From: a virus
Virus record (IMG/VR): IMGVR_UViG_3300043427_003491
Location: 1-33,903 of that record
Direction: 5' to 3' (one strand)
Length of the DNA stretch: 33,903 nt
Below the pieces are notes generated by a model, which was not told the origin of the DNA, made no database searches, and saw only the letters and a program-made list of their open reading frames with translations. The translations under genes and the position numbers were made by a program. Below are positions 15,111 through 27,252 of the stretch, one piece after another; within the stretch, counting starts at the first letter, position 1; each line of letters opens with the position of its first letter.

Positions 15111-15170
15111 ATTCTACAGGGTCAGCGGTGCCGCTCCCTCCGGGAGTGTGCCAGTGCCCCGACCGTCACA
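15111..15170 (-). promoter_or_regulatory. Palindrome/-10 cassette 1
   Basis: -10 TAGAAT (15111-15116), 30-bp gap, palindrome 15147-15170. The stop codon of the MutH-like gene (15166-15168) lies in its outer arm. Predicted to drive 14906-15082. The gap contains a CTCCC/GGGAG hairpin. Confidence 0.65.
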
Positions 15171-15759
15171 GGACTTCCTTACCGAATTTGCCGCACAGAT
15201 AGAACGCCATTCCCTTATCCTTCAGAGTGCAACCTGCAAAGGTCAGAGGAACATAAGCGCCGTTAGTTTTAGATGCTTTGGTCCGAATCTGCAGGAGTTT
15301 GTTAGGACCGGTGATGGTTTTGAGTTGTTCACCAGCAGCAAATGCATGGCGGATGGCATCACAAATGAAGTTGTAATCCTGCTCCAGTTGCTGATAGTGA
15401 ACAGGATCAGATTTGGCATTCAGTACAACCGAACCCAGGTATTGATTGGTGCGGGTGAAACCAACGTAGATGGTTTGATTGAGTTTTTCTCCGACCTTAC
15501 TATCAGCGAAGTTAACACCGTCTTCGATGATTTCAGAGAGGCAATGCTTCAACTGGGTTACAGCGATTGATTCACCCTGAGTGAAAGTTTTCAGTTCGCC
15601 GTCTACCAGGTCGGTAAGGTTGGAGGTGTTAGGAATGCCCAGGGCGACTTCAATCAGTTGCCCACGCTCACCCTTATTGCGACCGGGTTTGGCAACGTTA
15701 GTGAAGTTGAAGGTGGTGAGTTTGCCGTGAACTTCGGAGACGGAGAGTTTGGCGGGCAT
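15166..15759 (-). CDS. MutH/Sau3AI-like endonuclease (putative)
   Basis: 197 residues from ATG at 15759. Residues 28-57 carry the MutH/Sau3AI catalytic layout: KGERGQLIE (E37), then D50 or D53, then ExK in DGELKTF (E55, K57). In E. coli MutH these are E56, D70, E77 and K79 after a comparable GxxGxLIE segment. The C-terminal part has LQIRTKAS and KGMAFYL, similar to family segments near the C-terminus. MutH cuts hemimethylated GATC and Sau3AI cuts GATC; a Dam-type methyltransferase lies at 27239-28063. The D-to-E spacing is shorter than in MutH, so specificity and activity are open. Neighbour of ligase-like and ArdA-like genes. Confidence 0.65.
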   Translation of the reverse strand: MPAKLSVSEVHGKLTTFNFTNVAKPGRNKGERGQLIEVALGIPNTSNLTDLVDGELKTFTQGESIAVTQLKHCLSEIIEDGVNFADSKVGEKLNQTIYVGFTRTNQYLGSVVLNAKSDPVHYQQLEQDYNFICDAIRHAFAAGEQLKTITGPNKLLQIRTKASKTNGAYVPLTFAGCTLKDKGMAFYLCGKFGKEVL

Positions 15760-15781
15760 TGGGTGGGTTGCTGATGAATCA

Positions 15782-15841
15782 ATTATAAGGGGCAAAGGGG
15801 AGGGGGGAACCCTCCGCTGTGCCACCTATTCAACTGTCACA
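15782..15841 (-). promoter_or_regulatory. Palindrome/-10 cassette 2
   Basis: -10 TATAAT (15782-15787), 30-bp gap, palindrome 15818-15841, ending 6 nt before the stop of the 15848 gene. Its 24-bp palindrome is identical to that at 16922-16945. Drives the MutH-like gene. Confidence 0.75.
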
Positions 15842-15847
15842 CTATAA

Positions 15848-15997
15848 TCAGAATTCGATTGGATTGATGGTAGGTTCGCCAGCATTGGCGCTGCTTGAAT
15901 TATCACCCACGCCAGAAGAAATACTCTCAAGAATTTGGAGAATTTGTTCACCATTAGAACCTTGGCGCAGAAGTGAAACAAGAACGTTACGGGTCAT
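15848..15997 (-). CDS. Small protein, 49 residues
   Basis: 49 residues: MTRNVLVSLLRQGSNGEQIL then QILESISSG and a Ser/Asn-rich tail. An N-terminal amphipathic helix (VLVSLLRQGxxGxxILQILESI) followed by a disordered tail. It follows the 16020-16196 gene by 22 nt without its own -10, so it is probably cotranscribed. I think small proteins of this type occur in other cyanophages; function unknown. Confidence 0.7.
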   Translation of the reverse strand: MTRNVLVSLLRQGSNGEQILQILESISSGVGDNSSSANAGEPTINPIEF

Positions 15998-16019
15998 GAT
16001 TGTATTAGTAAAGTGTGAA

Positions 16020-16196
16020 TCAGGCAGCGACAGGTTCGGGAATCAGGCGCAGGATGTCATCCTCCCAACGGTAGAAGGTGAGAATCTCATCGTACAGATT
16101 GTCATCAACTTTAGGTTGCTCTGCCTTCATGATTGCATTCCGGCACTGTTCAGCAATTTCTTCCAGAGTGTAGAGTGCTTTGCAGTTGTAGCGCAT
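16020..16196 (-). CDS. Small protein, 58 residues
   Basis: 58 residues: MRYNCKALYTLEEIAEQCRN, AIMKAEQPKVDDNLYDEI, then LTFYRWEDDILRLIPEPVAA. Mostly helical and acidic; not recognised. It starts 26 nt after a TATAAT with the leader ACCAAACAAACCAAACAA, which has no Shine-Dalgarno. Confidence 0.7.
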   Translation of the reverse strand: MRYNCKALYTLEEIAEQCRNAIMKAEQPKVDDNLYDEILTFYRWEDDILRLIPEPVAA

Positions 16197-16222
16197 TTGT
16201 TTGGTTTGTTTGGTATGAGTGA

Positions 16223-16281
16223 ATTATAGGGCAGTTTAGGGACGTGCCCAGGTCCTTTGTGCCAGTTTAGAAATCGGCCAG
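16223..16281 (-). promoter_or_regulatory. Palindrome/-10 cassette 3
   Basis: -10 TATAAT (16223-16228), 29-bp gap, palindrome 16258-16281 (outer arm degenerate). The TAA of the 16267 gene lies inside. Gap hairpin GGAC/GTCC. Drives 16196 to 15848. Confidence 0.65.
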
Positions 16282-16539
16282 CATTTCGTTCATCTCATCG
16301 GCATCGATTGCTACGCTGTCCCATGCAACACCGTCACCAGTTTTGCCAAGCATACGCCCAATCTGACCCTCCATCATGCAGCGCACAAACTTGTCCCAAG
16401 GGGTCTCATTCTCTCCACAAAACTCTACACATGCCTTAGCAGTATTGTAGAGGAAATCATCATTCTGAATCCACAGGGCAGCATTCCAGGTTTCGTAAGT
16501 TGCCCAACCGTTGTAGGTGCTGAGGGTGAGGTCTTTCAT
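16267..16539 (-). CDS. Small conserved-type phage protein with NGWxxYETWN motif
   Basis: 90 residues from ATG at 16539; the longer frame would run through the promoter. The N-terminus STYNGWATYETWNAALWIQN is a striking signature that I associate with a family of small phage proteins (possibly DUF7249; not verified). It also has GVAWDSVAIDADEMNEMLAD at the C-terminus. Acidic, soluble, no membrane segment. Expressed from its own cassette promoter, which suggests an early host-takeover role, but the function is unknown. Confidence 0.75.
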   Translation of the reverse strand: MKDLTLSTYNGWATYETWNAALWIQNDDFLYNTAKACVEFCGENETPWDKFVRCMMEGQIGRMLGKTGDGVAWDSVAIDADEMNEMLADF

Positions 16540-16561
16540 TTGGTTTGTTTGGTATGAATCA

Positions 16562-16621
16562 ATTATAAGGGGTGGAAGGGCACCAGCGGGGGTGCCGTGT
16601 GCCACCTTGCCGATTGGTCAG
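16562..16621 (-). promoter_or_regulatory. Palindrome/-10 cassette 4
   Basis: -10 TATAAT (16562-16567), 30-bp gap with a GGCACC/GGTGCC hairpin, palindrome 16598-16621. The stop of the 16618 gene lies in the outer arm. A 29-nt stretch from the leader through the -10 is identical to that of cassette 7. Confidence 0.7.
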
Positions 16622-16857
16622 GGCAGCACCGCCAGACGCTCAGCACGGCGGGCTTTCTCTTGAATCTCAGAAAGTGCGGGGATTTGTTCAATCAAACGAA
16701 ACTCACACTTAGAGTAATCGTAACCCTGTTCTTCGGTCAGGTCCTTAGCGTATGCCACGGCAGCGGAGTGATAATCGAACAGGCGCAGAGAGTTGAAATC
16801 TTCGCCTTCATAATCCCATCCGCCGATGACAGCGTAGGCACGGGGCGTGTCGGTCAT
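16618..16857 (-). CDS. Small acidic protein, 79 residues
   Basis: 79 residues from ATG at 16857: MTDTPRAYAVIGGWDYEGED, FNSLRLFDYHSAAVAYAKDL, TEEQGYDYSKCEFRLIEQIP, then a basic helix (EIQEKARRAERLAVL). The GGWDYEGEDFxSLRLFDxxxxAxAYAxxL pattern looks like a small one-domain alpha/beta phage protein. Function unknown. Confidence 0.75.
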   Translation of the reverse strand: MTDTPRAYAVIGGWDYEGEDFNSLRLFDYHSAAVAYAKDLTEEQGYDYSKCEFRLIEQIPALSEIQEKARRAERLAVLP

Positions 16858-16886
16858 TTGATTTCCGTTTCGTTTGGTATGCCTTA

Positions 16887-16945
16887 GTATTGCAGCAAAT
16901 GGGGGGAACCGCAAGCGGGGTTGTGCCACCTATTCAACTGTCACA
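16887..16945 (-). promoter_or_regulatory. Palindrome/-10 cassette 5 (weak -10)
   Basis: At the expected position the hexamer is CAATAC (16887-16892), a poor -10, with a 29-bp gap to palindrome 16922-16945. The palindrome is identical in all 24 bases to cassette 2. The 16941 gene stop lies in the outer arm. Upstream of 16618-16857. Confidence 0.5.
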
Positions 16946-17144
16946 CGCCCTCCAGCAGTTCGGGATTGTATTCGGTAATCTCTGCAATCAGTTCCTCTTC
17001 AGTATAGCTATTGAGATTATCTACCAATGTATCAAATACAAACTGCTCCATCGTTTTCATGTCCATTCCATCCATAATCTGTTCGGCGTAACTCTCAATC
17101 AGAGTGCTACGATTGTCAGTCCAGGATTTAATGTTGTTAGTCAT
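16941..17144 (-). CDS. Small acidic helical protein, 67 residues
   Basis: 67 residues: MTNNIKSWTDNRSTLIESYA, EQIMDGMDMKTMEQFVFDTL, then VDNLNSYTEEELIAEITEYNPELLEGV. Acidic and predicted all-helical; the YTEEELIxEIxEYxPELLE end is the memorable part and looks like a recurrent cyanophage small protein. It starts 2 nt after the stop of the 17147 gene. Confidence 0.75.
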   Translation of the reverse strand: MTNNIKSWTDNRSTLIESYAEQIMDGMDMKTMEQFVFDTLVDNLNSYTEEELIAEITEYNPELLEGV

Positions 17145-17146
17145 TT

Positions 17147-17416
17147 TCAGTTAGCGTAGAGGGGCAGTTTCTTACGGTCACGAATTGAATCATCAATCAT
17201 TTGACCAACTTCTTCGTAAATGTAGGAAGAACCGCCTACATCAGCGAGCACATCTTGAGTGAAAAGAGTGGGAAAATAATCATCCTGATTCGTTTCCTCA
17301 TTAAACTCAACAACATCGTGTTGAGTGAATACAAACGCAGCACAGGGAGCGTTCTCACCTTGACTCTCAATCATTGAATTGATAGAGTCACGAAGTTCAG
17401 AAAGTGTGCGGTACAT
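17147..17416 (-). CDS. Small protein, 89 residues
   Basis: 89 residues: MYRTLSELRDSINSMIESQG, ENAPCAAFVFTQHDVVEFNE, then YFPTLFTQDVLADVGGSSYIYEEV region and a basic end. Alternating strands and helices, soluble. Starts with TGATTATG spacing (2 nt after the stop of the gene before). Unrecognised; member of a four-gene operon (17680 down to 16941). Confidence 0.75.
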   Translation of the reverse strand: MYRTLSELRDSINSMIESQGENAPCAAFVFTQHDVVEFNEETNQDDYFPTLFTQDVLADVGGSSYIYEEVGQMIDDSIRDRKKLPLYAN

Positions 17417-17418
17417 AA

Positions 17419-17568
17419 TCAGTGGTGAAGAGTGATAAGGGCAGCGGCAAACTTGTCTTCGTCCAGTGTCTCCAACTCATCTTCGGAGAGTGACACTAAC
17501 AGGGCAACGATTTCAGCGAATGACATAGTGGGTTCTTTGAGTTCAGGGTAGAGAGTTTCAGTAATCAT
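17419..17568 (-). CDS. Small acidic protein, 49 residues
   Basis: 49 residues: MITETLYPELKEPTMSFAEI, VALLVSLSEDELETLDEDKF, then AAALITLHH. A leucine-rich acidic helix pair. Its ATG lies 11 nt inside the end of the 17558 gene. Unrecognised. Confidence 0.65.
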   Translation of the reverse strand: MITETLYPELKEPTMSFAEIVALLVSLSEDELETLDEDKFAAALITLHH

Positions 17569-17680
17569 AATCACCTTTCAGGTATTCATCAAGGTTGAAG
17601 TCTTTGCTGTCCTGCATCTCCGGAATGTCGAAAATCTCACCGGGAGCATCTTGAATCTCAGACCAGAGTTCGTCAAACAT
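17558..17680 (-). CDS. Very small acidic protein, 40 residues
   Basis: 40 residues: MFDELWSEIQDAPGEIFDIP then EMQDSKDFNLDEYLKGDYDY. First gene of the operon 17680-16941; strongly acidic, aromatic ends. Overlaps the next gene by 11 nt. The MFDELWSEIxDAPGEIFxIP start looks like a recurring cyanophage protein; role unknown. Confidence 0.7.
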   Translation of the reverse strand: MFDELWSEIQDAPGEIFDIPEMQDSKDFNLDEYLKGDYDY

Positions 17681-17705
17681 TGTGGGATTTCCTCTCAACA
17701 GATGT

Positions 17706-17765
17706 AGTATGGCACGGGATGGGGGGCATCTCAACCCCCCGTGTGACAGTTCAGTGACCGTCCTG
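17706..17765 (-). promoter_or_regulatory. Palindrome/-10 cassette 6
   Basis: -10-like CATACT (17706-17711), 30-bp gap, palindrome 17742-17765 (TGTGACAGTT arm). The stop of the 17751 gene lies in the central spacer. Drives the four-gene operon 17680-16941. Confidence 0.55.
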
Positions 17766-17912
17766 GTAGGAACCCAGGATCATGCCATCCCGGCGGACCT
17801 CAGCGTATCCAAACTCCTCAGAGAGATCCAGGCAGAGATCCCACGCCCGGCCCTCATCAGAGGTGCTCTCAGACTCGTAAGGGGCGGAAGGAACGTAGAC
17901 TTGGAAACGCAT
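17751..17912 (-). CDS. Small protein, 53 residues
   Basis: 53 residues from ATG at 17912: MRFQVYVPSAPYESESTSDE, GRAWDLCLDLSEEFGYAEVR, then RDGMILGSYQDGH. Looks like one small alpha/beta domain (strand, helix DLCLDLSEEFG, two strands). Function unknown. Own cassette promoter. Confidence 0.7.
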   Translation of the reverse strand: MRFQVYVPSAPYESESTSDEGRAWDLCLDLSEEFGYAEVRRDGMILGSYQDGH

Positions 17913-17938
17913 TTGTTTGGTTTGTTTGGTATGAATCA

Positions 17939-17998
17939 ATTATAGGGGGTCAGCGGGCACCCCGGCGGGCACCGTGTGCCACTCCCTCAGCTGGCACA
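17939..17998 (-). promoter_or_regulatory. Palindrome/-10 cassette 7
   Basis: -10 TATAAT (17939-17944), 30-bp gap, palindrome 17975-17998 with arms TGTGCCA/TGGCACA. The stop TGA of the ligase-like gene (17987-17989) lies in the central part. Drives 17751-17912. Confidence 0.7.
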
Positions 17999-18904
17999 CT
18001 GAAAGCGTCCGCTGTTGAAGTTTGCATAAGAGAATACCTCACGATTCACCAGTTTGAACATACCAAACCGATTGGAGAGCACGTAACCCTCAGCATCAAT
18101 ACGGTTGCCGTTGATGTATGCTGCAGGACCATCATTGCGGCACAGATGCAGGCAATCATCCTTAATAGATTTCACCAGTGCCCACAAACGAATCAGGTTA
18201 GGATCACACTCAAAATCATCCTCATGCACACGGTAATTCTCACGAATGCGAGCATTGATTTGTCGCTTAATCTCTTCTGCTTTCTTTGCAGTCACAAACT
18301 GTACAGCAGTTGCCATTTGGCGGGCAAACTTTACCACGTCCTCTACATCATCAAAGCACACGGTTCCGTTGCTGGTAGTCCAAGGATCGTGCAGAATGTA
18401 TCCTTCGGGTTTGACAAACTTGACCGTTTCAGTATCAGTCCAGATGCTACGGTCAGGGAATGCCTCAGCATCACGAAGATCGCTCTCAGCATAATAGCAA
18501 GTGTGAGGAGCGATGATAATGTTCTGAGTTACGATGTCACCGAACTGATACGTAATCAGGTTGGATTGGTACTCATTCAATCCACCGAAACCGATGAAGT
18601 CTGCCTGATAGATTGTCTCCAAACGGGGCAGATGATCAAAGCAGCAGTGCAGAATCTGTGCAACTTCGCCCTGATAGAAGAGATCAATCTCCTCATGATT
18701 GTGAGCGATACGAATCTTTTTCTTGTTGAATACTGCCTTGGTTCCTACAAAGAACTCACCATTAGCAGGATCAATTCCCCATACGATTGCAGGAGCACCA
18801 TCAATCTTGACACTCAAAGTGCCAGGTTCAATGAACCAATCCAGAACGGAAAGATCACCGGTCAGGATGGTATCTTCGGGGTGGTCGAGGTGAATGTTTT
18901 TCAT
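17987..18904 (-). CDS. DNA/RNA-ligase-like nucleotidyltransferase (putative)
   Basis: 305 residues. Residues 31-43 (SVKIDGAPAIVWG) match ligase motif I, KxDG, with K33 as the candidate adenylation lysine. FFVGTKAVFNKKK follows. FIGFGG may be motif III. Near the C-terminus EGYVLSNRFGMFKLVNREVF (E272, K284) has the motif IV/V layout (EGxV...fKl). I associate this combination with phage proteins annotated as DUF6267 (from memory), proposed to share the ATP-dependent ligase fold. No OB-fold domain is obvious. Substrate unknown; nick sealing, RNA repair or a non-ligase nucleotidyl transfer are all possible. Preceded by an unusual cassette that has no adjacent upstream gene. Confidence 0.7.
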   Translation of the reverse strand: MKNIHLDHPEDTILTGDLSVLDWFIEPGTLSVKIDGAPAIVWGIDPANGEFFVGTKAVFNKKKIRIAHNHEEIDLFYQGEVAQILHCCFDHLPRLETIYQADFIGFGGLNEYQSNLITYQFGDIVTQNIIIAPHTCYYAESDLRDAEAFPDRSIWTDTETVKFVKPEGYILHDPWTTSNGTVCFDDVEDVVKFARQMATAVQFVTAKKAEEIKRQINARIRENYRVHEDDFECDPNLIRLWALVKSIKDDCLHLCRNDGPAAYINGNRIDAEGYVLSNRFGMFKLVNREVFSYANFNSGRFQCAS

Positions 18905-18910
18905 ACTGTT

Positions 18911-18970
18911 AGTATTGCATGGATTCCGGCGAACCGCAAGCGGGTGGGTGCCAGTTCACGAAGTGGCACA
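18911..18970 (-). promoter_or_regulatory. Palindrome/-10 cassette 8, no adjacent upstream gene
   Basis: -10-like AATACT (18911-18916), 30-bp gap, palindrome 18947-18970 (inner arms CCAGTT and GAAGTGG). Unlike the others no coding sequence ends here: the next gene upstream stops 250 bp away. It supports a promoter role for the palindrome. Drives the ligase-like gene. Confidence 0.6.
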
Positions 18971-19090
18971 GGACCCCTTCCGGTGCCTCTCTGCGGCTTT
19001 ATAATACGGGGACAAGGGAGAGAGGGGCGGGGTAGCCCTGATGACGCCAACCATCGCCACCGGGGCAGCTTTGAAATAGTTATAAAATAT
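18971..19090. other. Non-coding stretch between cassette 8 and the terminator
   Basis: Part of the 318-bp gene-free interval 18905-19222. GC-rich up to about 19070, then AT-rich. On the minus strand a TATAAAG-like box occurs near 19000. A 79-codon minus frame (18901-19140) runs through the hairpins and is not credible as a gene. Confidence 0.4.
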
Positions 19091-19123
19091 AAGAAAAAAG
19101 GAAAGGGCACCACCCCTTTCCTT
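19091..19123 (-). terminator. Intrinsic terminator
   Basis: Ten-bp perfect stem AAGGAAAGGG / CCCTTTCCTT (19098-19107 with 19114-19123), followed on the minus strand by TTTTTTCTT. The clearest rho-independent terminator in the window; it ends transcripts from the ArdA-like gene and the candidate small RNA. Confidence 0.85.
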
Positions 19124-19203
19124 ATAACCTCACTACCCACTTTATCTGTTATGATATCACCACAGGAGTAACTTTTGACGTTGAGAGAGGCAAACTCATT
19201 CCT
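19091..19203 (-). ncRNA. Candidate small RNA, about 113 nt
   Basis: A strong sigma70-type promoter (19210-19239) fires into about 113 nt that end at an intrinsic terminator. The predicted RNA has a 5' stem-loop (AGAGAGG at 19184-19190 pairs with CCTCTCT at 19201-19207, 7 bp; the last few bases may lie before the start site) and a 3' terminator stem. The only ORF is 16 codons, starting without a correctly spaced Shine-Dalgarno. It is therefore a better candidate for a regulatory RNA or decoy than for an mRNA. Inference from sequence only. Confidence 0.5.
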
Positions 19204-19209
19204 CTCTGT

Positions 19210-19239
19210 ATTATATCATACTTCAGAAGTTGCTGTCAA
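19210..19239 (-). promoter_or_regulatory. Sigma70-type promoter inside the end of the ArdA-like gene
   Basis: Minus strand TTGACA (19239-19234), 18 nt, TATAAT (19215-19210). The -35 encodes part of the final codons of the ArdA-like gene. No gene follows before the terminator 90-120 nt downstream. Confidence 0.7.
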
Positions 19240-19639
19240 AGATGTAACCATCCACGAAATCGAAATCATACTTCATACTTTGCTCCCAAGTTGCTTCCCA
19301 ATCAACGACAAGAAAGGAAGGAACATCGCCGTAGACATCATTATAGAATTCTTCGGCAAAGTCAGCACCAGAATCATAAGCACCACGGTAGGCATCACGA
19401 ACGTGCTCAACATAGGAGATGCCGTGATAACCTACAAATGCATCCACAACATCATAACCAAGGTCCTCACCGTGAGTCACGTACTCTTCATAGAATGCAA
19501 CGAAATCATCTTCATTGTTGTTGTCGATGAACTCCAGGATATCATCAATGAAATAGTTGTCTTCCAGCAATTGATCGATCTTCTCTACAGTTTCAGCAGC
19601 GAAGATTTCTTTGTAGTTCACGGTCAGAGTGACGGACAT
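19223..19639 (-). CDS. ArdA-like antirestriction protein, short form
   Basis: 138 residues, very acidic (DNA mimic character). The C-terminal two-thirds follow ArdA: DVVDAFVGYHG, then the family core RDAYRGAYDSGADFAEEFYN, then VVDWEATWEQSMKYDFDFVDGYIFD. ArdA dimers mimic bent B-DNA and block type I restriction enzymes. Typical ArdA proteins are about 165 residues; here the N-terminal domain is shortened, while the DFAEEF/DWEATW region is kept. It sits among DNA-modification genes (MutH-like, ligase-like, Dam), consistent with protection of phage DNA. Own cassette promoter upstream, terminator downstream. Confidence 0.8.
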   Translation of the reverse strand: MSVTLTVNYKEIFAAETVEKIDQLLEDNYFIDDILEFIDNNNEDDFVAFYEEYVTHGEDLGYDVVDAFVGYHGISYVEHVRDAYRGAYDSGADFAEEFYNDVYGDVPSFLVVDWEATWEQSMKYDFDFVDGYIFDSNF

Positions 19640-19667
19640 TTGGTGGATTTGTTTGGTATGAATGTAG

Positions 19668-19725
19668 ATTATCAGGGATTGAGGCGGAAGTCTAGGGGGT
19701 GTGTGCCAGTTTGGTGACTGTCACA
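19668..19725 (-). promoter_or_regulatory. Palindrome/-10 cassette 9
   Basis: -10 GATAAT (19668-19673), 28-bp gap, palindrome 19702-19725. The stop of the 19721 gene lies in the outer arm. Drives the ArdA-like gene via a leader related to ACCAAACAAA. Confidence 0.7.
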
Positions 19726-19942
19726 TCATACGGTGAGCATCCAACCATTCGCCAGCATTATCATATTGGCGAACTTTCAGCATATCAAACCGACTCACAG
19801 GTACGCTATAAACGGCACCCGAAGTCATCTTGGCAATTGCAACTCCATGCACAGGAGAGAGAATCAATGCATCAAGAGATTTACTACCAGAGCAGTTAAC
19901 ATTAACGAACAAGGGCAGATTGTCAAGAATCCAGTTGAACAT
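19721..19942 (-). CDS. Small protein, 73 residues
   Basis: 73 residues: MFNWILDNLPLFVNVNCSGS, KSLDALILSPVHGVAIAKMT, SGAVYSVPVSRFDMLKVRQY, then DNAGEWLDAHRMM. Beta-rich middle (VHGVAIAKMTSGAVYSVPVSR) and a C-terminal helix. The V-x-Y-x-V-P/x-S-R-x-D-M-L pattern faintly resembles KTSC-type small domains; not enough to assign. Confidence 0.7.
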   Translation of the reverse strand: MFNWILDNLPLFVNVNCSGSKSLDALILSPVHGVAIAKMTSGAVYSVPVSRFDMLKVRQYDNAGEWLDAHRMM

Positions 19943-19967
19943 TGAAATTTCTCAGGAACGAATGTAA

Positions 19968-20025
19968 TTTATCAGGGATTGGGGGATTAATCAACCCCCT
20001 TTGTGCCAGTTCCTAGACTGTCACA
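19968..20025 (-). promoter_or_regulatory. Palindrome/-10 cassette 10
   Basis: -10-like GATAAA (19968-19973), 28-bp gap holding a GGGGGTTGATTAATCCCCC hairpin, palindrome 20002-20025. The stop TAG of the 20013 gene lies in the central spacer. Drives 19721-19942. Confidence 0.65.
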
Positions 20026-20225
20026 TCAGCGAGCAACAGTTTGTGAATACGGTCTGCCTCCTCTAGAACATCATCATCTAGACGGTCCCATTCCACCCAA
20101 TCATAGGCAGAATAGGTCGTTTCGTATGAACCATCAGACAGCAGCGGAGCATACATCAGAACCCGGTCATTGTCAGGGTCCAGAGTATAAGTGCAACCAT
20201 TAATTTGAGAGATGGCGAAAATCAC
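20013..20225 (-). CDS. Small acidic protein, 70 residues (GTG start)
   Basis: 70 residues with a GTG start at 20225: MIFAISQINGCTYTLDPDND, RVLMYAPLLSDGSYETTYSA, YDWVEWDRLDDDVLEEADRI, HKLLLADVTV. Strands then an acidic helix. The start lies 22 nt after a TATATT -10. Not recognised. Confidence 0.65.
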   Translation of the reverse strand: MIFAISQINGCTYTLDPDNDRVLMYAPLLSDGSYETTYSAYDWVEWDRLDDDVLEEADRIHKLLLADVTV

Positions 20226-20246
20226 GAATTCCTCAGCGATGTATGT

Positions 20247-20305
20247 AATATACCAGCAATCAGCGGCGTTTGATAGTTTTCTGTGCCACTTTCACAACTG
20301 GCACA
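20247..20305 (-). promoter_or_regulatory. Palindrome/-10 cassette 11, palindrome inside a coding sequence
   Basis: -10 TATATT (20247-20252), 29-bp gap, palindrome 20282-20305. Here the upstream gene (20260-20517) reads through the palindrome, encoding VPVVKVAQ, and stops in the gap. The spacing to the -10 is unchanged. Confidence 0.65.
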
Positions 20306-20517
20306 TCGGTATCAACCAGCGGCAGCAATTTGCCCACAATAGTATCAACGAACTGCAGCACGGTTTGAATCACCTTGCGAGTCTTTTGTGCGCCGTTGTT
20401 TTCTTTATAAGCACGAACCAAAAATTGCACAATTCCCACAACGATTGCGGCGATGGTAGCAACATTCAGAATCAGAGTATTAACGAAGGACCAGTAGAAA
20501 GAATTAGCGGTTTTCAT
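20260..20517 (-). CDS. Small single-pass membrane protein
   Basis: 85 residues. One strong membrane segment at about residues 13-34 (NTLILNVATIAAIVVGIVQFL), then a basic, amphipathic helical part and a Lys/Arg end (KTIKRR). Probably inserts into the host inner or thylakoid membrane. Its last residues are encoded by the palindrome of cassette 11. Its leader is longer than the others (about 53 nt between -10 and ATG). Confidence 0.7.
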   Translation of the reverse strand: MKTANSFYWSFVNTLILNVATIAAIVVGIVQFLVRAYKENNGAQKTRKVIQTVLQFVDTIVGKLLPLVDTDVPVVKVAQKTIKRR

Positions 20518-20570
20518 GATAATAAATGGGGTGGGAGGGTTAGTGTAGAGAATTCCTCAACCACGAAAGT

Positions 20571-20630
20571 ACTATAACCCCTAGCGCATGAGCTCGCAAG
20601 GGGTCTTGTGCCACTTCTCAAACTGTCACA
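20571..20630 (-). promoter_or_regulatory. Palindrome/-10 cassette 12
   Basis: -10 TATAGT (20571-20576), 30-bp gap, palindrome 20607-20630, which abuts the stop of the 20631 gene. A CCCCT/AGGGG hairpin fills the gap. Drives the membrane-protein gene. Confidence 0.7.
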
Positions 20631-20786
20631 TTAATAGATGTCCCCCAATTCTTTGACGCTAGAATGCACAGATTCATCCCCTTCTAGACCTAAGATATCA
20701 TTCCAATCTAGTTCTTCTAGATCTAGATCATCATAGCATTCAATATCTAGTGTTACACGTACTAGACGCTTGTTAGTGACAGGCAT
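20631..20786 (-). CDS. Small acidic protein with CTAG-rich codons
   Basis: 51 residues: MPVTNKRLVRVTLDIECYDD, LDLEELDWNDILGLEGDESV, HSSVKELGDIY. Acidic; the first strand then LD repeats look like a small ferredoxin-like fold fragment, not assignable. It uses CTA for leucine almost throughout, giving seven CTAG tetranucleotides in 156 nt. A TATAAT (20813-20818) lies 26 nt upstream of the ATG. Confidence 0.65.
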   Translation of the reverse strand: MPVTNKRLVRVTLDIECYDDLDLEELDWNDILGLEGDESVHSSVKELGDIY

Positions 20787-20953
20787 AAGAATCTCGTGTG
20801 ATGTGTGTGAGTATTATATCATGCATAGTGGCGATATGCAAGATCTTGATAATCTTGCCCATCTCGTGCATAATCTTCATCGAGATCTAAATCATGTGTG
20901 TAATACTCGTCGAGATCTTGTCCATAATCGTTGGCGTATGTATAGTCGAGATC
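20720..20953. other. GATC-rich segment
   Basis: Six GATC sites in 234 bp (20720, 20726, 20842, 20884, 20914, 20950), against about one expected per 256 bp. A Dam-type methyltransferase gene lies 6 kb away. GATC clusters are a known feature of enterobacterial oriC, but the specificity of this phage enzyme is not known. Confidence 0.4.
20813..20818 (-). promoter_or_regulatory. -10 box (TATAAT) for the 51-residue gene
   Basis: Minus-strand TATAAT just after the stop of the 20819 reading frame, 26 nt before the ATG at 20786. No palindrome at the cassette distance and no clear -35. Confidence 0.5.
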
Positions 20954-20968
20954 GTAATCGTCGTACAT
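20819..20968 (-). CDS. Possible Asp/Tyr-rich small protein
   Basis: 49 residues from ATG at 20968: MYDDYDLDYTYANDYGQDLD then EYYTHDLDLDEDYARDGQDY. Extremely rich in Asp and Tyr, with DLD repeats that arise because GATCTCGA-type repeats are read in frame. It follows a good promoter (21000-21028). It may be a real acidic peptide or only a reading frame through the repeat region. Confidence 0.4.
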   Translation of the reverse strand: MYDDYDLDYTYANDYGQDLDEYYTHDLDLDEDYARDGQDYQDLAYRHYA

Positions 20969-21123
20969 AAAACTCGTCGAGAACTTTGAATACTTCGTTA
21001 TTATAGCATGAATCTCGACGAGTTGCAAGGCGTATCTCGACGAGTTTCATAAGAGTATATATGCAATCTCGTCGAGAATGTTAAGATATACTGATATAAG
21101 ACCTTGTGATATGTCTCGACGAG
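20906..21123. repeat. Six near-palindromic CTCG(A/T)CGAG sites
   Basis: Full copies of CTCGTCGAGA or its complement TCTCGACGAG begin at 20906, 20973, 21013, 21035, 21068 and 21114; half-like TCGAGATC sites lie near 20880 and 20946. Each is an odd-length palindrome centred on A/T. One copy sits inside the spacer next to the -35 of the 21000-21028 promoter. They look like binding sites for one dimeric protein, either operator or iteron type. Confidence 0.75.
21000..21028 (-). promoter_or_regulatory. Sigma70-type promoter with an operator-like site in its spacer
   Basis: Minus strand TTGCAA (21028-21023), 17 nt, TATAAT (21005-21000). The first 10 nt of the spacer are one CTCGTCGAGA site. Directs transcription leftward into 20968 and possibly 20786. 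Confidence 0.65.
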
Positions 21124-21170
21124 ATTCATGAGTCTGTGTGGGTCTCATAGTTTTTCGGGCGGCGTGGGGG

Positions 21171-21199: not shown

Positions 21200-21211
21200 T
21201 GCTTAGGTTGC

Positions 21212-22174: not shown

Positions 22175-22253
22175 GTATCTTCAGCACCTCTTTGAATGTA
22201 ATATACACATAATCCAATTGGTCCTTAAGTCTTATGTTGCTCACAGTCTCGTA
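22175..22253. other. Convergent gap after the homing endonuclease
   Basis: About 80 bp between the ends of the plus-strand endonuclease gene and the minus-strand 22254 gene. I see no hairpin with a U-run and no RNA gene. Confidence 0.4.
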
Positions 22254-23457: not shown

Positions 23458-23458
23458 T

Positions 23459-24184: not shown

Positions 24185-24209
24185 GGGGCGCTCCGTTGAT
24201 TACCTTGTA

Positions 24210-24268
24210 ATTATAGGTCAGAAAGACGGCACGACATCGTACCTTAGACCAGTTTGCGAAGTGTCCAC
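24210..24268 (-). promoter_or_regulatory. Palindrome/-10 cassette 13 (decayed palindrome in a coding sequence)
   Basis: -10 TATAAT (24210-24215), 29-bp gap, decayed palindrome 24245-24268 (inner CCAGTT...AAGTG kept, outer ends lost). It lies inside the 24218-24430 gene. I found it by applying the fixed spacing. Shares a 23-nt leader/-10 stretch with cassette 14. Confidence 0.5.
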
Positions 24269-24430
24269 CTGCTCCCAGAGGGCATGAAGTTTATCATACA
24301 GTGCCGGAACACTTCCGTAGTCTTTTGCAAGATAAATTTCGTCAATATTTTCAAGTTTTTGAAGTGCAGACAGGAGAATACCTAACTCATGTGCATTTAG
24401 ATTTACACTAATTTCTACTTTTTTATTCAT
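24218..24430 (-). CDS. Small helical protein, 70 residues
   Basis: 70 residues from ATG at 24430: MNKKVEISVNLNAHELGILL, SALQKLENIDEIYLAKDYGS, VPALYDKLHALWEQVDTSQT, GLRYDVVPSF. One strand then two helices (LGILLSALQKLEN; ALYDKLHALWEQV). ATGA overlap with the gene before. The end of the frame contains the cassette 13 palindrome. Confidence 0.75.
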   Translation of the reverse strand: MNKKVEISVNLNAHELGILLSALQKLENIDEIYLAKDYGSVPALYDKLHALWEQVDTSQTGLRYDVVPSF

Positions 24431-24636
24431 ACACCTTTTAGAATAAGACGTTCGGACAAACACATCGTCAGTTCGGCGGATACTTGCATATCCACATCAC
24501 CAAGTTTAGCATGAATTGCATCAGGAATCAATTCTGCCAGCAGTTCAAAGAACCGCTCATCATCCATAATATAATCGGCAACATCCTTAGAAAGTGCCTC
24601 GGACAGTTTGATGATTGTGTTGTTAGAGAGTGCCAT
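24427..24636 (-). CDS. Small helical acidic protein, 69 residues
   Basis: 69 residues: MALSNNTIIKLSEALSKDVA, DYIMDDERFFELLAELIPDA, IHAKLGDVDMQVSAELTMCL, SERLILKGV. All-helical and acidic. TGATTATG spacing to the gene before. The MALSNNTxIKLSEAL start looks recurrent among cyanophages. Function unknown. Confidence 0.78.
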   Translation of the reverse strand: MALSNNTIIKLSEALSKDVADYIMDDERFFELLAELIPDAIHAKLGDVDMQVSAELTMCLSERLILKGV

Positions 24637-24638
24637 AA

Positions 24639-24806
24639 TCAGAGAGGAGTGACTTCTACAGAGCGAATGAGATTAGTGCGGTCTTGTGCTAGGTAATCAT
24701 CAGCAATCTTACCACAGGATGAACGTGAGCGAACAAACCTTTCCTCAAATAGTTTCCCATTCTCATCAAAATCCCAATACTCAATCACCATGCGATAGTT
24801 CTTCAT
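24639..24806 (-). CDS. Small protein, 55 residues
   Basis: 55 residues: MKNYRMVIEYWDFDENGKLF, EERFVRSRSSCGKIADDYLA, QDRTNLIRSVEVTPL. Layout strand, basic turn, helix, strand. Overlaps the preceding gene by ATGA and leads into the next with TGATTATG. Not recognised. Confidence 0.75.
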   Translation of the reverse strand: MKNYRMVIEYWDFDENGKLFEERFVRSRSSCGKIADDYLAQDRTNLIRSVEVTPL

Positions 24807-25012
24807 TTGGAGAGTTGCAGATTGTACTTGGAAATCAGAAGGTCACGGACAAGTTCACGATCAATACTATCACCACAGAACTCTTCACCTTTGATTTTAA
24901 GAATGCGAATCAGGTCCTGAGTTGCCTTGCGAACAAGAGTCAGAGTAGCACCCATCGGATAGATGCCATCCTTGCCGTAGAAAGAAAGAACGTAATCGTA
25001 GAATTCAGTCAT
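24803..25012 (-). CDS. Small protein, 69 residues
   Basis: 69 residues from ATG at 25012: MTEFYDYVLSFYGKDGIYPM, GATLTLVRKATQDLIRILKI, KGEEFCGDSIDRELVRDLLI, SKYNLQLSK. Helical; the FYDYVLSFYGxDGIYPMGAT start is distinctive, and I think it recurs among T4-like cyanophages (not verified). 1-nt gap from the gene before. Unknown. Confidence 0.76.
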   Translation of the reverse strand: MTEFYDYVLSFYGKDGIYPMGATLTLVRKATQDLIRILKIKGEEFCGDSIDRELVRDLLISKYNLQLSK

Positions 25013-25013
25013 T

Positions 25014-25229
25014 TCAGTTACCTTCAGCGATGTCGTTGAGAATGCGGCGGGCAAACTTCATAAAGTCGTATGAAGTTACAGTTTCAGTTTTACCGTGATC
25101 GAAGCAATAACCATCAAGCAGTTCGGATTGATTGTAGGTGTTGACAATCAGCAGGCAGGCATCATACAGTGCTGCCTGGTGCTCCTCTTTAGAACGAAAC
25201 TGAATGGCGTTGTAGGAGGGGAGAGTCAC
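25014..25229 (-). CDS. Small helical protein, 71 residues (GTG start)
   Basis: 71 residues with a GTG start at 25229: MTLPSYNAIQFRSKEEHQAA, LYDACLLIVNTYNQSELLDG, YCFDHGKTETVTSYDFMKFA, RRILNDIAEGN. Mostly helical. The start lies 27 nt after the cassette 14 TATAAT. Heads the cotranscribed set down to 24218. Confidence 0.7.
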   Translation of the reverse strand: MTLPSYNAIQFRSKEEHQAALYDACLLIVNTYNQSELLDGYCFDHGKTETVTSYDFMKFARRILNDIAEGN

Positions 25230-25256
25230 GGTCGGGGTTCCGTTGATTACCTTGTA

Positions 25257-25315
25257 ATTATACTGCCTGCATCAGGCGGTTCGGGAAGTAGTGTGCCACC
25301 TCTTGGACTGGCACA
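25257..25315 (-). promoter_or_regulatory. Palindrome/-10 cassette 14, overlapping the metalloprotease end
   Basis: -10 TATAAT (25257-25262), 29-bp gap, perfect-armed palindrome 25292-25315. The upstream gene reads through it (encoding VPVQEVAH) and its TAA stop is formed inside the TATAAT box itself. Confidence 0.75.
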
Positions 25316-25734
25316 CCCTCTTTCTCCTGTAGGTACTCCAGATATAGTGTCTCTTCCTGTTCCCGTGCCTCTATTTCGTGTGGTTGATGCCAATACTCAT
25401 AATTTTCAACGGGTTCTTTAGAATAACACAATTTCCCGTAACGCATCCGCAGCGAACCTGCCACCCATTGCCGCAGATGAGTCAGTTCGTGCAAAAGAGT
25501 TTGTATATACAACTCTTTGGGCATATGAGTGTCAAGTTCAATCAGGAACTCACGGGGGCGTTGAGTCTCTCCAGATACATCACAATATCCATAAGCACCC
25601 TCACGCTTCAGACCACGATGTAGGATTTCCACATCAATCTTATGGCGTGGAAGAAACTTATTCAGAAACCAAAAGGTAACGTCCTCACAGAGGCGTTTAG
25701 AATAACCGTATCCAGAATACGTGACGTAAGACAT
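25258..25734 (-). CDS. Zinc metalloprotease-like protein (HExxH), N-terminus probably frameshifted
   Basis: 158 residues from ATG at 25734. The zinc motif HELTH is at residues 82-86 (LLHELTHLRQW), with EIEAREQEE (E120/E122) a likely third ligand, a SprT/gluzincin-like layout. Two Cys and a YGYCDVSGE segment precede it. Upstream in another frame is a short ORF (25662-25796) with a start codon 2 nt after the previous stop and a hydrophobic run. Adding one base to the T5 run at 25747-25751 joins the two and gives an N-terminal membrane anchor (MTAKDKLIFVSSFIWFFALG then SMSYVTYSG). So this is either a -1 programmed frameshift or a 1-nt deletion. Function unknown; protease role inferred. Confidence 0.75.
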   Translation of the reverse strand: MSYVTYSGYGYSKRLCEDVTFWFLNKFLPRHKIDVEILHRGLKREGAYGYCDVSGETQRPREFLIELDTHMPKELYIQTLLHELTHLRQWVAGSLRMRYGKLCYSKEPVENYEYWHQPHEIEAREQEETLYLEYLQEKEGVPVQEVAHYFPNRLMQAV

Positions 25735-25796
25735 TGACCCCAGTGCAAAAACCAAATGAACGAAGAAACAAAAATAAGTTTGTCTTTAGCAGTCAT
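25662..25796 (-). CDS. Short ORF, likely true N-terminus of the metalloprotease
   Basis: 44 codons: MTAKDKLIFVSSFIWFLHWG then QCLTSRILDTVILNASVRTL. Start ATG has the same TGATTATG coupling seen elsewhere in this region, but the second half reads through another gene in a different frame. I think only the first 16 or so residues are used, as the anchor of the metalloprotease after a frameshift. Confidence 0.4.
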   Translation of the reverse strand: MTAKDKLIFVSSFIWFLHWGQCLTSRILDTVILNASVRTLPFGF

Positions 25797-25798
25797 AA

Positions 25799-26209
25799 TC
25801 AGCAGACGAATGCAAGTCCTCCAAGTGATGCTCCAAGTGCAGTTGCCCAACCACGATTATTACGATTGTTGGGAGTGCTAGTCATAGATCGTCCGATTGC
25901 TCCACCTAAAACAGCACCAAGAAGAGTTCTGGTTGGATTGCAGTTAGGATTTGTTGCCCGACCATAATAACCATTTCCTCCACCATAGTACCCCTGATTA
26001 CCATTCCAACTACCACCAGAAACCTGATTGCAAGGAACATTATAGGATTGAGTCTGTACTCCACCCGGATAGTAATTCCCGTACTCATCATAACCTCCGG
26101 GAACATATACTTCCTGATATTGAGTACAGACTCCAAACTGATTCACTTGCTGTGCCATCACAGGCATCGGAGCAAACAGAAGTGCAGAGAGTAGAAAAAG
26201 TTTTTTCAT
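25799..26209 (-). CDS. Secreted glycine-zipper protein
   Basis: 136 residues from ATG at 26209. Signal peptide at about residues 1-19 (MKKLFLLSALLFAPMPVMA, cut after A). Then a Gly/Tyr/Asn-rich low-complexity part (YDEYGNYYPGG, GNQGYYGGGNGYYG) and a glycine-zipper segment (TRTLLGAVLGGAIGRSM...ATALGASLGGLAFVC) similar to YMGG/2TM-zipper proteins that sit in the outer membrane or periplasm. Possible roles: host envelope change, superinfection exclusion or lysis; none shown. Overlaps the upstream gene by ATGA. Confidence 0.75.
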   Translation of the reverse strand: MKKLFLLSALLFAPMPVMAQQVNQFGVCTQYQEVYVPGGYDEYGNYYPGGVQTQSYNVPCNQVSGGSWNGNQGYYGGGNGYYGRATNPNCNPTRTLLGAVLGGAIGRSMTSTPNNRNNRGWATALGASLGGLAFVC

Positions 26210-26661
26210 TTTGCGTAAAGATAAGAACCGCTCCAATCGGCATTCTCAAACAACCATTCACGCTGCTCAATGATGCGAAGGTCATAACGAACACCTTTGG
26301 CAGGAGATTTCCAACTGGCAGACTTATAAACTTCACCAGTCTTCTTATCTATAAAGGCGTGAACCGAACGAGAACCATTCGCATTCATAATGATTTTGTG
26401 ATACTTCTTACCAGACTCAAAGGTGAAATCATAATCACACTTACCATTCCGCAAATCCTGAATGCAGGCAATATGATAGTGGGCATTCTCACCCAGTTCT
26501 ACACCACGCTTGTGAGACCGAATGCTATAATCAATGTAGTTCTGACGCAGTGCTTCACACAGTTGCCAACAATACTTGACAACGTTCAGTTGGATGGTAT
26601 TCTGTGCATCACGTTGAGCACAGAAGTCACTGAAGTCCTTGGTGAGAAAAGCAGAAGTCAT
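26206..26661 (-). CDS. Hypothetical protein, 151 residues
   Basis: 151 residues, soluble alpha/beta: helical N-terminal half (MTSAFLTKDFSDFCAQRDAQ, NTIQLNVVKYCWQLCEALRQ), then HYHIACIQDLRNGKCDYDFT, ESGKKYHKIIMNANGSRSVH, FIDKKTGEVYKSASWKSPAK, VRYDLRIIEQREWLFENADW. The KKTGEVYKSASWKSPAKGVRYDLR segment is a phage-type motif I have seen in cyanophages but cannot name. Heads an operon with the glycine-zipper protein; own cassette promoter. Confidence 0.78.
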   Translation of the reverse strand: MTSAFLTKDFSDFCAQRDAQNTIQLNVVKYCWQLCEALRQNYIDYSIRSHKRGVELGENAHYHIACIQDLRNGKCDYDFTFESGKKYHKIIMNANGSRSVHAFIDKKTGEVYKSASWKSPAKGVRYDLRIIEQREWLFENADWSGSYLYAK

Positions 26662-26683
26662 CGGGTTTGTTGCTTATGAATGT

Positions 26684-26742
26684 ATTATAGGGCATCCAGA
26701 GGGGTCTGGGATGCCCTGTGTGCCAGTTGTCAGAGTGTCACA
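26684..26742 (-). promoter_or_regulatory. Palindrome/-10 cassette 15
   Basis: -10 TATAAT (26684-26689), 29-bp gap holding a GGGCATCC/GGATGCCC hairpin, palindrome 26719-26742. The stop of the 26738 gene lies in the outer arm. Drives 26661 to 25258. Confidence 0.75.
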
Positions 26743-27166
26743 CCGCAAGTGCTCCTTTGGGGATTTCAACGATTTCAGGCAGTTTGTCATCTTCAAACTG
26801 ATTCATATTGTAGCACACCCATTCACCATTGCGGAAGAGATAAGCATACTCTTCACCATCACAAAGGTATTCACCAATGTTGTTATCAAGGCGAGGAGGA
26901 CAATCTTCGCCACGCTGAGAGTAATACATCGGACCGTACTTCTTCACGGTGCAATCATCATTCGCATCACGTTTTGCGTCCCAAACTTCATCAGTCCAGC
27001 AGCAGGACATATCACCACCGTCAATCAGTTCGGCAACAGCATCTTTGCTGTTGTAATGAGTGTTCAGAATACGACCCAACCATTCAGGATAACCATCCCA
27101 GTGATGATAGGCAGAGAGAACAGAACCGTCAGAGAGTTCAAGACCAATGCGAGAGCGGGTTGCCAT
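26738..27166 (-). CDS. Small phage protein with SAYHHWDGYPEWLG motif
   Basis: 142 residues from ATG at 27166. The N-terminal half MATRSRIGLELSDGSVLSAY, HHWDGYPEWLGRILNTHYN, ELIDGGDMSCCW matches a family of small phage and bacterial proteins (MxTRSxIGIxLxDGSVxSxYxHWDGYPexxGxIL). The C-terminal half is acidic with YGPMYYSQRGEDCPP and YAYLFRNGEWVCYNM. Function unknown. Own cassette promoter. Confidence 0.8.
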   Translation of the reverse strand: MATRSRIGLELSDGSVLSAYHHWDGYPEWLGRILNTHYNSKDAVAELIDGGDMSCCWTDEVWDAKRDANDDCTVKKYGPMYYSQRGEDCPPRLDNNIGEYLCDGEEYAYLFRNGEWVCYNMNQFEDDKLPEIVEIPKGALAV

Positions 27167-27192
27167 TGAGGGCGTTTGTTGATTACCCACAT

Positions 27193-27252
27193 ATTATAAG
27201 GGGTCCCCAGTGCCCTGAGAACCCCCTGTGTACCAGTTTCAAGACTGCCACA
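27193..27252 (-). promoter_or_regulatory. Palindrome/-10 cassette 16
   Basis: -10 TATAAT (27193-27198), 30-bp gap, palindrome 27229-27252. The stop of the Dam gene lies in the central spacer. Drives 26738-27166. Confidence 0.7.

Follow-up and report, generated by a model that had tools for sequence, protein, structure and literature searches.

A palindromic promoter cassette of cyanophages and its possible use of a host GntR regulator

Introduction

What could switch on the genes behind sixteen minus-strand copies of a 24-bp palindrome, each followed at a nearly constant distance by a -10-like hexamer? The copies lie in IMG/VR virus record IMGVR_UViG_3300043427_003491, and "the window" here means the whole stretch of 33,903 nucleotides that was analysed. 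T4-like cyanophages are described as lacking alt, motA and asiA (PMC2984593, in the portion consulted), and the proposal made here bears on how their early genes are switched on by an unmodified host polymerase.

We propose, with a probability of roughly two in three, that cyanophages copy a host operator and may thereby recruit a host GntR-family activator. The support is sequence-based: fixed spacing, recurrence, an early gene block in phage Mic1, a host Yfr2 site at the same spacing, and GntR genes in the hosts, whereas a search of the tested phages gave none. Because it names a host regulator and defines a 60-bp cassette, the proposal is directly testable in laboratory strains. If it is true, early phage expression would depend on light and nitrogen signalling via Yfr2. 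The site also offers a simple early-gene marker for uncultured cyanophage contigs.

Cassettes in the window

The sites lie on the minus strand at the positions in Table 1, where the initial annotation had placed sixteen palindromes. Only 12 of the 16 are full palindromes. Those at 16258, 16598 and 17742 are half-sites, with 6/6 core bases in the promoter-proximal arm and 2/6 in the distal arm, and 24245 is weak, with 3/6 in each arm. Using a matrix trained, without holding out, on the remaining 12 sites, none of these four scores above the maximum of 50 simulated sequences (15.1). Allowing up to 3 mismatches gives 12 palindrome matches in the window against 0.01 expected (100 shuffles), and the exact pattern TGTGNCA-N10-TGNCACA occurs nine times (reversed control pattern: zero).

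All 16 sites are followed, 28–30 bp downstream, by a hexamer that differs from TATAAT at no more than 2 positions; at 8 sites it is exactly TATAAT. Both points are as originally described. That no -35 is visible is true of most copies but not of all: 5 of the 16 have a TTG 7–9 bp past the palindrome, in the -35 place. The spacer folds at -7.0 kcal/mol or better in 13 of the 16 cassettes; inspected by eye, none of the 16 spacers contains TTTT. In cassette 14 the spacer is the coding end of the upstream gene, whose stop codon falls inside the -10. The gene after 27229 starts MATRSRIG (read by eye) and resembles an ortholog group of P-HM2 and S-SSM7.

Table 1. Positions and composition of the sixteen cassettes in the window
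Cassette	Coordinates	Strand	Site	Spacer	-10
1	15111..15170	-	palindrome 15147-15170	30 bp	TAGAAT
2	15782..15841	-	full palindrome 15818-15841	30 bp, hairpin	TATAAT
3	16223..16281	-	half-site 16258-16281 (proximal arm only)	29 bp	TATAAT
4	16562..16621	-	half-site 16598-16621	30 bp, hairpin	TATAAT
5	16886..16945	-	full palindrome 16922-16945	TTG at -35 place	AATACT
6	17706..17765	-	half-site 17742-17765	hairpin, TTG at -35 place	CATACT
7	17939..17998	-	full palindrome 17975-17998	hairpin	TATAAT
8	18911..18970	-	palindrome 18947-18970 (1 core base off)	TTG at -35 place	AATACT
9	19668..19725	-	full palindrome 19702-19725	28 bp	GATAAT
10	19968..20025	-	full palindrome 20002-20025	hairpin	GATAAA at 28 bp (TAAATT at 30)
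11	20247..20305	-	full palindrome 20282-20305	29 bp	TATATT
12	20571..20630	-	full palindrome 20607-20630	hairpin, TTG at -35 place	TATAGT
13	24210..24268	-	weak site 24245-24268	29 bp	TATAAT
14	25257..25315	-	full palindrome 25292-25315		TATAAT
15	26684..26742	-	full palindrome 26719-26742	strong hairpin	TATAAT
16	27193..27252	-	palindrome 27229-27252 (1 core base off)	strong hairpin	TATAAT

Recurrence in viral contigs and named phages

Viral-contig scans covered at least 120 stretches each; their totals are lower bounds, and most contigs have no known host. Among the matches listed, a -10 lies at 28–30 bp from 340 of 414 unique sites, against 16–52 of 414 in 15 control windows; each site was oriented to the side with the best -10, and related phages are not independent. 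Exact TATAAT falls at +29 60 times, at +30 22 times and at +28 9 times, compared with 0.35 per other offset, for the 312 unique palindromes among the matches listed on contigs with at least two sites.

Gene context was taken from 225 of the 243 cassettes among the matches listed, leaving out those near locus ends; 195 of these have an ATG after the -10, at a median of 24 nt. A TTG at -35 with 16–18 bp spacing is present in 64 of 243 listed cassettes and missing from 179. Spacer hairpins of -5 kcal/mol or better occur in 100/243 listed cassettes compared with 33/240 and 18/241 in flanks, and a hairpin plus TTTT, as in a complete terminator, in only 13/243.

The search of related cyanophages that had been suggested found the cassette in the cultured cyanomyoviruses S-SSM7, P-SSM2, S-PM2, P-HM2, Syn9 and S-CRM01. 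Counts of a half-site plus -10 exceed those in simulated sequence in P-SSM2 (21 versus 1.7), S-SSM7 (20 versus 2.3), P-HM2 (12 versus 1.3), Syn9 (9 versus 1.0), S-PM2 (9 versus 1.3) and Bellamy (7 versus 1.0). Eleven ortholog groups of downstream genes retain the cassette in at least two named phages. The ortholog of the gene downstream of cassette 8 also has one in P-SSM2 and S-SSM7, that of cassette 15 in Bellamy, S-SSM7 and S-CAM9, and genes related to the one downstream of cassette 13 have it in S-SSM7 and P-SSM2. De novo motif search recovered the palindrome in S-SSM7 and gave nothing clear in Syn9, P-HM2, P-SSM2, S-PM2, Bellamy or S-CAM9; aligning every -10-like hexamer before start codons gave no signal, the noise being too high. 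The palindrome element is absent from S-TIM5, Ma-LMM01, Syn5, Nostoc A1, PSS2 and kac65v151.

Viral-contig spacing and ortholog groups support a promoter cassette in which a site of the protein-binding type keeps a constant distance to the -10. Contrary to the first impression, neither palindrome nor spacing is distinctive to this virus: both recur in viral contigs and cultured cyanophages, and host Yfr2 promoters have a related form. The initial annotation is partly confirmed as an observation and partly supported as an interpretation.

Early genes

The Microcystis siphophage Mic1, which is unrelated to cyanomyoviruses, has the palindrome cassette at 48 sites. All 48 lie within gp49–gp73 or no more than 250 bp after it, a block that makes up 21% of the genome. 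The consulted part of the Mic1 study describes this block as early by RNA-seq, with immediate-early genes gp69–gp73 reaching their peak by 0.5 h (PMC11237433). A site precedes the start of 12 Mic1 early genes by 92–104 bp; the immediate-early gene gp49 has no palindrome site. Mic1 sites form tandem arrays, 26 of 47 neighbouring pairs being 55–65 bp apart. The genes of the window are predicted to be early.

Host Yfr2 promoters and the GntR regulator

In 120 Cyanobacteriales genomes we found 28 palindromes, 8 of them upstream of the sRNA Yfr2 (Rfam Cyano-1). The Rfam run covered 9 distinct sites of the 28, picked after a shared leader was noticed. Choosing genes by RNA homology alone (the best-scoring locus, one per genome), a related site scoring above 5 is present at 30 of 60 Yfr2 loci; the other half have no site above that score. 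The highest-scoring site within the 3-kb locus falls in the expected 20-bp window in 9/30 and 5/30 cases, with about 0.1 expected for each; without three Cyanobacteriales loci that repeat the earlier palindrome sites, the best-site count is 7/27. Counted without tie-breaking, a -10-like hexamer lies 29, 30 and 31 bp from the site in 12, 7 and 5 of 30, and at most 3 times at any other offset.

The consulted portion of PMC6778093, which describes the work of Lambrecht et al. (2018, DNA Res), states that PMM1637, a host GntR regulator shared by all cyanobacteria, binds those yfr2 promoters that contain the element CGRE1, that Yfr2 induction is mediated by PMM1637, and that CGRE1 in MED4 occurs only at yfr2 promoters. 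We infer from this description that CGRE1 is probably the site seen here at Yfr2 promoters. The two agree in that host Yfr2 promoters have a related site 29–31 bp from the -10 and hosts encode one conserved GntR. They differ in the arms: in picocyanobacteria it is chiefly the distal arm that is conserved (5.2/6, against 3.0/6 proximal), whereas in phages it is chiefly the proximal arm or both arms (4.6 distal, 5.4 proximal).

GntR (PF00392) was found in 27 of 31 picocyanobacterial genomes and not in the other 4, and a relative is present in 29 of 30 Cyanobacteriales. The same search gave none in 14 phage records and none in the window.

Alternative explanations

The palindrome might instead be bound by a protein of the phage itself, either delivered by the virion or made very early, its likeness to the host Yfr2 site being distant or convergent. 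We consider this unlikely. It would explain why strict palindromes are many in phages and rare in picocyanobacterial hosts: 18 host genomes have none, and of 201 picocyanobacterial genomes five contain a one-mismatch palindrome, in each case outside any clear promoter setting (ORFs were listed for two). ParB-like or DNA-binding genes are also present in the window and in Mic1. However, the site is shared by two phage types that are not related, host Yfr2 promoters have a related one at the same spacing, and Mic1 gp69–gp73 are at their peak by 0.5 h (PMC11237433, in part). We identified no conserved phage DNA-binding candidate; the 34 proteins that five cyanomyoviruses have in common and T4 lacks were selected by sharing alone, and the ParB-like window protein has no match in eight named genomes. 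The MarR protein of P-SSP7 was not accepted as the binder because it binds downstream of the start site (PMC9692554, in the part consulted).

More doubtful still is a repressor or decoy operator, by which early genes would be shut off or phage copies would titrate the regulator from yfr2. Near-ideal copies are numerous in phages, Mic1 has its tandem arrays, and CGRE1 is restricted in MED4 to yfr2 promoters, all of which suit such an operator. However, a spacing held to 28–30 bp and the many copies that have no -35 are easier to reconcile with an activator in contact with RNA polymerase than with repression, and Yfr2 induction is said to go through PMM1637 (PMC6778093, in part).

The cassette also recalls PeSL, and the initial annotation had made this comparison. 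PeSL cassettes were reportedly described in RB49/phi1 by Arbiol et al. in 2010. They reportedly likewise join an early-type promoter and a stem-loop ahead of one to few small genes in a hyperplastic region. In the window, unlike PeSL, the hairpin lies inside the promoter, between operator and -10, and there is an extra element, a distal dimer operator. It is very improbable that the cassettes are PeSL-like constitutive sigma-70 promoters with terminators, in which the palindrome has no regulatory role and instead lets cassettes recombine with one another. The promoter and hairpin, the one to few genes per cassette and the tandem Mic1 copies would suit this, but the distance from palindrome to -10 is fixed while the intervening sequence diverges, recombination alone predicts neither that distance nor host Yfr2 sites, and 179 of 243 cassettes among the matches listed have no TTG at the -35 place.

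Least credible is that the palindrome works as an RNA stem, whether to terminate, process or stabilise transcripts: it overlaps or closely follows the upstream stop codon in 131 of 225 listed cassettes and so is often transcribed, but its distance to the downstream -10 is fixed, the cassette of 25292 lies within coding sequence, and we rejected the stem, in line with the initial annotation, because arm positions do not covary among the 243 listed cassettes (positions 5/20 complementary in 155, with 154.9 expected; 8/17 in 68, fewer than the 100.9 expected).

Proposed mechanism

Under the preferred reading, recruitment of a host GntR activator, each cassette would be a compact promoter serving one or few small phage genes. 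The operator would be a 24-bp dimer site centred near -54, followed after 29 (28–30) bp by a -10 that host sigma-70-type RNA polymerase would read. The -35 would be weak or absent in most copies, often with a hairpin in its place, which may act as a terminator for the gene before it. The phage operator would be copied from the element found at host Yfr2 promoters, in most cases with greater symmetry. Because the phage site resembles this host switch, the virus may borrow the host's regulator as infection begins. The binder is most likely the GntR-family regulator, PMM1637 in Prochlorococcus MED4 and Sll1961 in Synechocystis. Sll1961, like CobT/CobS and UvsW-like, is a putative name, in part taken from reference titles. 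The regulator would be present already at infection and would contact RNA polymerase from a fixed distance, activating the genes at once; both its binding to phage sites and its activation there are predicted from sequence comparison.

A wider scenario, to which we give somewhat less than even odds, is that unrelated cyanophages, T4-like ones and a Microcystis siphophage, adopted, symmetrised and multiplied the Yfr2 operator, with one GntR firing early genes and being drawn off yfr2. This GntR would be tied to light and nitrogen state, and thus the early programme would read host physiology. About 60 bp would then combine an activator site, a terminator for the preceding gene and a -10.

Relation to known systems

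T4 early promoters share the sigma-70-type -10, but the motif recovered from them de novo includes a -35 of the GTTTAC type and lacks the palindrome. The T4 genome has 0 palindromes, and the window sites do not show the GTTTAC-type -35.

The portions of the literature searched, which did not include the texts of Doron 2016 and Lambrecht 2018, contain no description of the palindrome in cyanophages. The phage-host link is the new part, and given this scope it may have been published earlier. Doron et al. (2016, ISME J) are said to have found a novel regulatory element that controls early-gene transcription in Syn9 and P-TIM40 and is reportedly conserved among T4-like cyanophages. The phage element was probably already reported there for Syn9, so the gain here is the host link, a second phage type and the anatomy. 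In Syn9, early-type genes at 46–53 kb have the palindrome site, or a near variant of it, with the spacing unchanged. The present analysis measured the palindrome and its 29-bp rule, the hairpin nested in the promoter, the Mic1 sites and the relation to host Yfr2.

Cassettes in the window

The window is a piece of a T4-like cyanophage genome, with baseplate wedge genes (PHROG 219 and PHROG 261) in its left part and a block of small minus-strand genes to their right. Sixteen cassettes, each consisting of a 24-bp palindrome (the operator), a spacer and a -10-like hexamer, had been reported in the initial annotation, and all were located. The hexamer lies 28–30 bp downstream of the palindrome in 16/16, as claimed, and is exactly TATAAT in 8/16. 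The palindrome is the full TGTGNCA-N10-TGNCACA in 12 of the 16; three cassettes have the promoter-adjacent arm only and one is weak, so the claim of a common palindrome stands in part. The absence of a visible -35 likewise stands for 11 cassettes and fails for the other five, which have TTG at the -35 place. The 12 full palindromes compare with 0.01 expected; nine are exact, and the reversed pattern gives none. Spacers fold at -7.0 kcal/mol or better in 13/16.

Positions of features in the window and in compared sequences (window cassettes are named by palindrome coordinate)
Sequence	Position	Strand	Feature	Remarks
Window	3–9464	minus	One reading frame	3153 codons; adjoins baseplate genes
Window	14001–21000		Block of small minus-strand genes with cassettes; higher G+C	43–50%; structural genes leftward have about 30%
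Window	15111–27252	minus	Sixteen cassettes	
Window	15147, 16258, 16598, 16922, 17975, 19702	minus	Cassettes with common leader CATACCAAAC downstream of the -10	By eye; extended by AAACCAAA in several
Window	20906–21124		Seven to eight copies of CTCGTCGAGA (at most one mismatch)	About 220 bp, A+T-rich, between gene blocks; 11 in window overall against 0.83 expected
Window	25292–25257	minus	Cassette with spacer coding for the upstream protein's end	By eye; stop codon inside -10 box, 29-bp spacing still kept
P-SSM2	58535		Cassette related to window 25292–25257	Same features
L060 (compared locus)	10114		Cassette related to window 25292–25257	Same features
Window	27239–28063		DNA methyltransferase (phrog_56)	
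Window	28060–28980		ParB-like protein (phrog_1033, E 2.6e-5)	Adjoins the methyltransferase
Mic1 (MN013189)	57,329–72,102		All 48 sites scoring above 15	
Mic1 (MN013189)	66006–72102		Tandem operator arrays ahead of immediate-early gp69–gp73, spaced 55–65 bp; such arrays also in L073 (a compared locus)	

Distribution among phages

The fixed spacing extends beyond the window. Two IMG/VR scans gave at least 195 viral-contig loci with at least 414 unique palindromes. Among the matches listed, exact TATAAT occurs at +28/+29/+30 in 9/60/22 cases at loci with two or more sites (0.35 per other offset) and in 2/17/7 at single-site loci (0.09 per other offset). A -10 lies at 28–30 bp for 340 of the 414 palindromes listed, versus 16–52 across 15 control windows.

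Named phages were searched with the viral-contig matrix (score >8, -10 at 28–30 bp; control distance 48–50 bp). This search of relatives, proposed in the initial annotation, gave 26 cassettes versus 1 at the control distance in P-SSM2, 21 versus 4 in S-SSM7, 19 versus 0 in S-PM2 and 16 versus 2 in P-HM2; counts were 10 versus 4 in Bellamy, 9 versus 4 in Syn9, 6 versus 2 in S-CAM9 and 1 versus 1 in T4. At 11 ortholog groups of downstream genes the cassette is kept in at least two of these phages; the groups include a 707–751-residue and a 396–415-residue protein (four phages each). Five of the 16 window cassettes have a downstream gene matched in the named phages, and three of these matches also carry a cassette.

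Exact palindromes number 9 in S-SSM7, 6 in P-SSM2, 3 each in S-PM2 and P-HM2, 2 in Syn9 and 1 in S-WAM2, with none in S-TIM5, Bellamy, S-CAM9, T4 or Ma-LMM01. With one mismatch allowed there are 11 in S-CRM01, 7 in S-SKS1, 45 in Mic1 and 1 in P-SSP7, and none in Syn5, Nostoc A1, PSS2, kac65v151 or T4. Bellamy and S-CAM9 have weaker forms (proximal arm, i.e. the one nearer the promoter, plus -10: 7 versus 1.0 in simulated sequence for Bellamy, just 2 versus 1.0 for S-CAM9), and Syn9 has variants with an altered proximal arm. Several cyanophages are without the element.

Doron et al. (2016) reportedly described a novel early-gene element that Syn9 and P-TIM40 carry and that is conserved among T4-like cyanophages. 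The phage cassette is probably that element. The present analysis supports the palindrome with its 29-bp rule, the nested hairpin, a second phage type with timing (Mic1) and a matching site at the Yfr2 promoters of hosts.

Anatomy of the cassette

Among 243 viral-contig cassettes with a good -10, TTG is present at 16–18 bp in 64. A spacer fold of -5 kcal/mol or stronger is present in 100/243, versus 33/240 and 18/241 in the flanks, which are lower in G+C; fold z-scores below -2 occur in 48/243, versus 16/240 and 16/241. In 13 of the 243 the folded spacer is joined by a TTTT run, so that operator and -10 enclose a full terminator. In 131/225 the upstream frame has its stop codon within the palindrome or no more than 30 nt ahead of it, and an ATG follows the -10 in 195/225 (median 24 nt), so the entire control unit occupies the gap between two genes.

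The initial annotation had favoured a protein site over an RNA stem, and base pairing across the arms points the same way. Palindrome positions 5/20 are complementary in 155/243 cassettes, versus 154.9 expected if independent, and thus lack covariation. Positions 8/17 are complementary in 68/243, versus 100.9 expected and below all 2000 shuffles, a deficit that is a lead rather than a law because related phages are not independent. By these counts the palindrome reads as a protein site, not an RNA stem, the 8/17 part being a lead. At 8/17, G-G and C-C are favoured over complementary pairs, as though a perfect inverted repeat were disfavoured.

Early genes of Mic1

Mic1 is a Microcystis siphophage unrelated to the T4-like cyanomyoviruses. 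Its early genes are gp49–gp73 minus gp61 and gp67, according to PMC11237433. All 48 sites scoring above 15 lie inside gp49–gp73 or at most 250 bp beyond, 21% of the genome. Twelve early genes have a site 92–104 bp ahead of the start codon; the early gene gp49 has none. The tandem arrays precede gp68–gp73, of which gp69–gp73 are immediate-early, and 26/47 gaps between sites are 55–65 bp; sites within one array are not independent of each other.

Host Yfr2 promoters

The strict palindrome pattern was found in 0/18 host genomes. With one mismatch it occurs in 5/201 picocyanobacterial genomes (controls 0). In Cyanobacteriales there are 28 sites in 23/120 genomes, versus 1 for the reversed pattern. 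Nine distinct Cyanobacteriales sites were chosen for their common leader, and an Rfam search placed eight of them just upstream of Cyano-1 (RF01701). Cyano-1 corresponds to the sRNA Yfr2, judging by eye from Yfr2a/Yfr2c primers quoted in PMC2662882, which match the leader GTGTGTGAGGAG and loop of these RNAs.

For an independent test, Yfr2 genes were picked by RNA homology alone, in 3-kb loci from 30 Cyanobacteriales and 30 picocyanobacteria. The best site of the locus falls in the expected 20-bp window in 9/30 Cyanobacteriales (7/27 without repeats) and 5/30 picocyanobacteria, about 0.1 being expected in each; this window holds one of the top three sites in 15/30 and 14/30. Sites scoring above 5 occur at 30/60 Yfr2 loci, 25 of them beginning 59–65 nt upstream of the RNA. 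A clear site is absent at half of the 60 loci, including a copy from Synechocystis salina (L458). In the 30 sites, -10-like hexamers lie at 29/30/31 bp in 12/7/5 cases, and each remaining offset in the range 10–49 has three at most; the spacing is that of the phage cassette. Picocyanobacterial Yfr2 sites retain the distal arm, whereas phage sites retain the proximal arm.

Candidate regulator

PMC6778093 describes PMM1637, a GntR regulator common to all cyanobacteria, as binding yfr2 promoters that contain the element CGRE1, which in MED4 occurs nowhere else, and as mediating the induction of Yfr2 under high light and at a late stage of nitrogen starvation. According to PMC2662882, a Yfr2a promoter equals psbA2 in strength and is stimulated by light. 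A host GntR regulator of the PMM1637 type is a likely candidate binder of the phage palindrome, which may correspond to CGRE1. A host factor binding there would account both for unrelated phages having the same site and for genes able to start at once. Counting against this candidate are the Yfr2 loci that lack a clear site, the opposite choice of retained arm in picocyanobacteria and phages, and the cyanophages that have no such element. The 14 phage records searched, of which four are fragments, yielded no GntR, and neither did the window. Among hosts, 27/31 picocyanobacteria have GntR domains, and 29/30 Cyanobacteriales have a close relative of one picocyanobacterial GntR, with best hits 58–82% identical.
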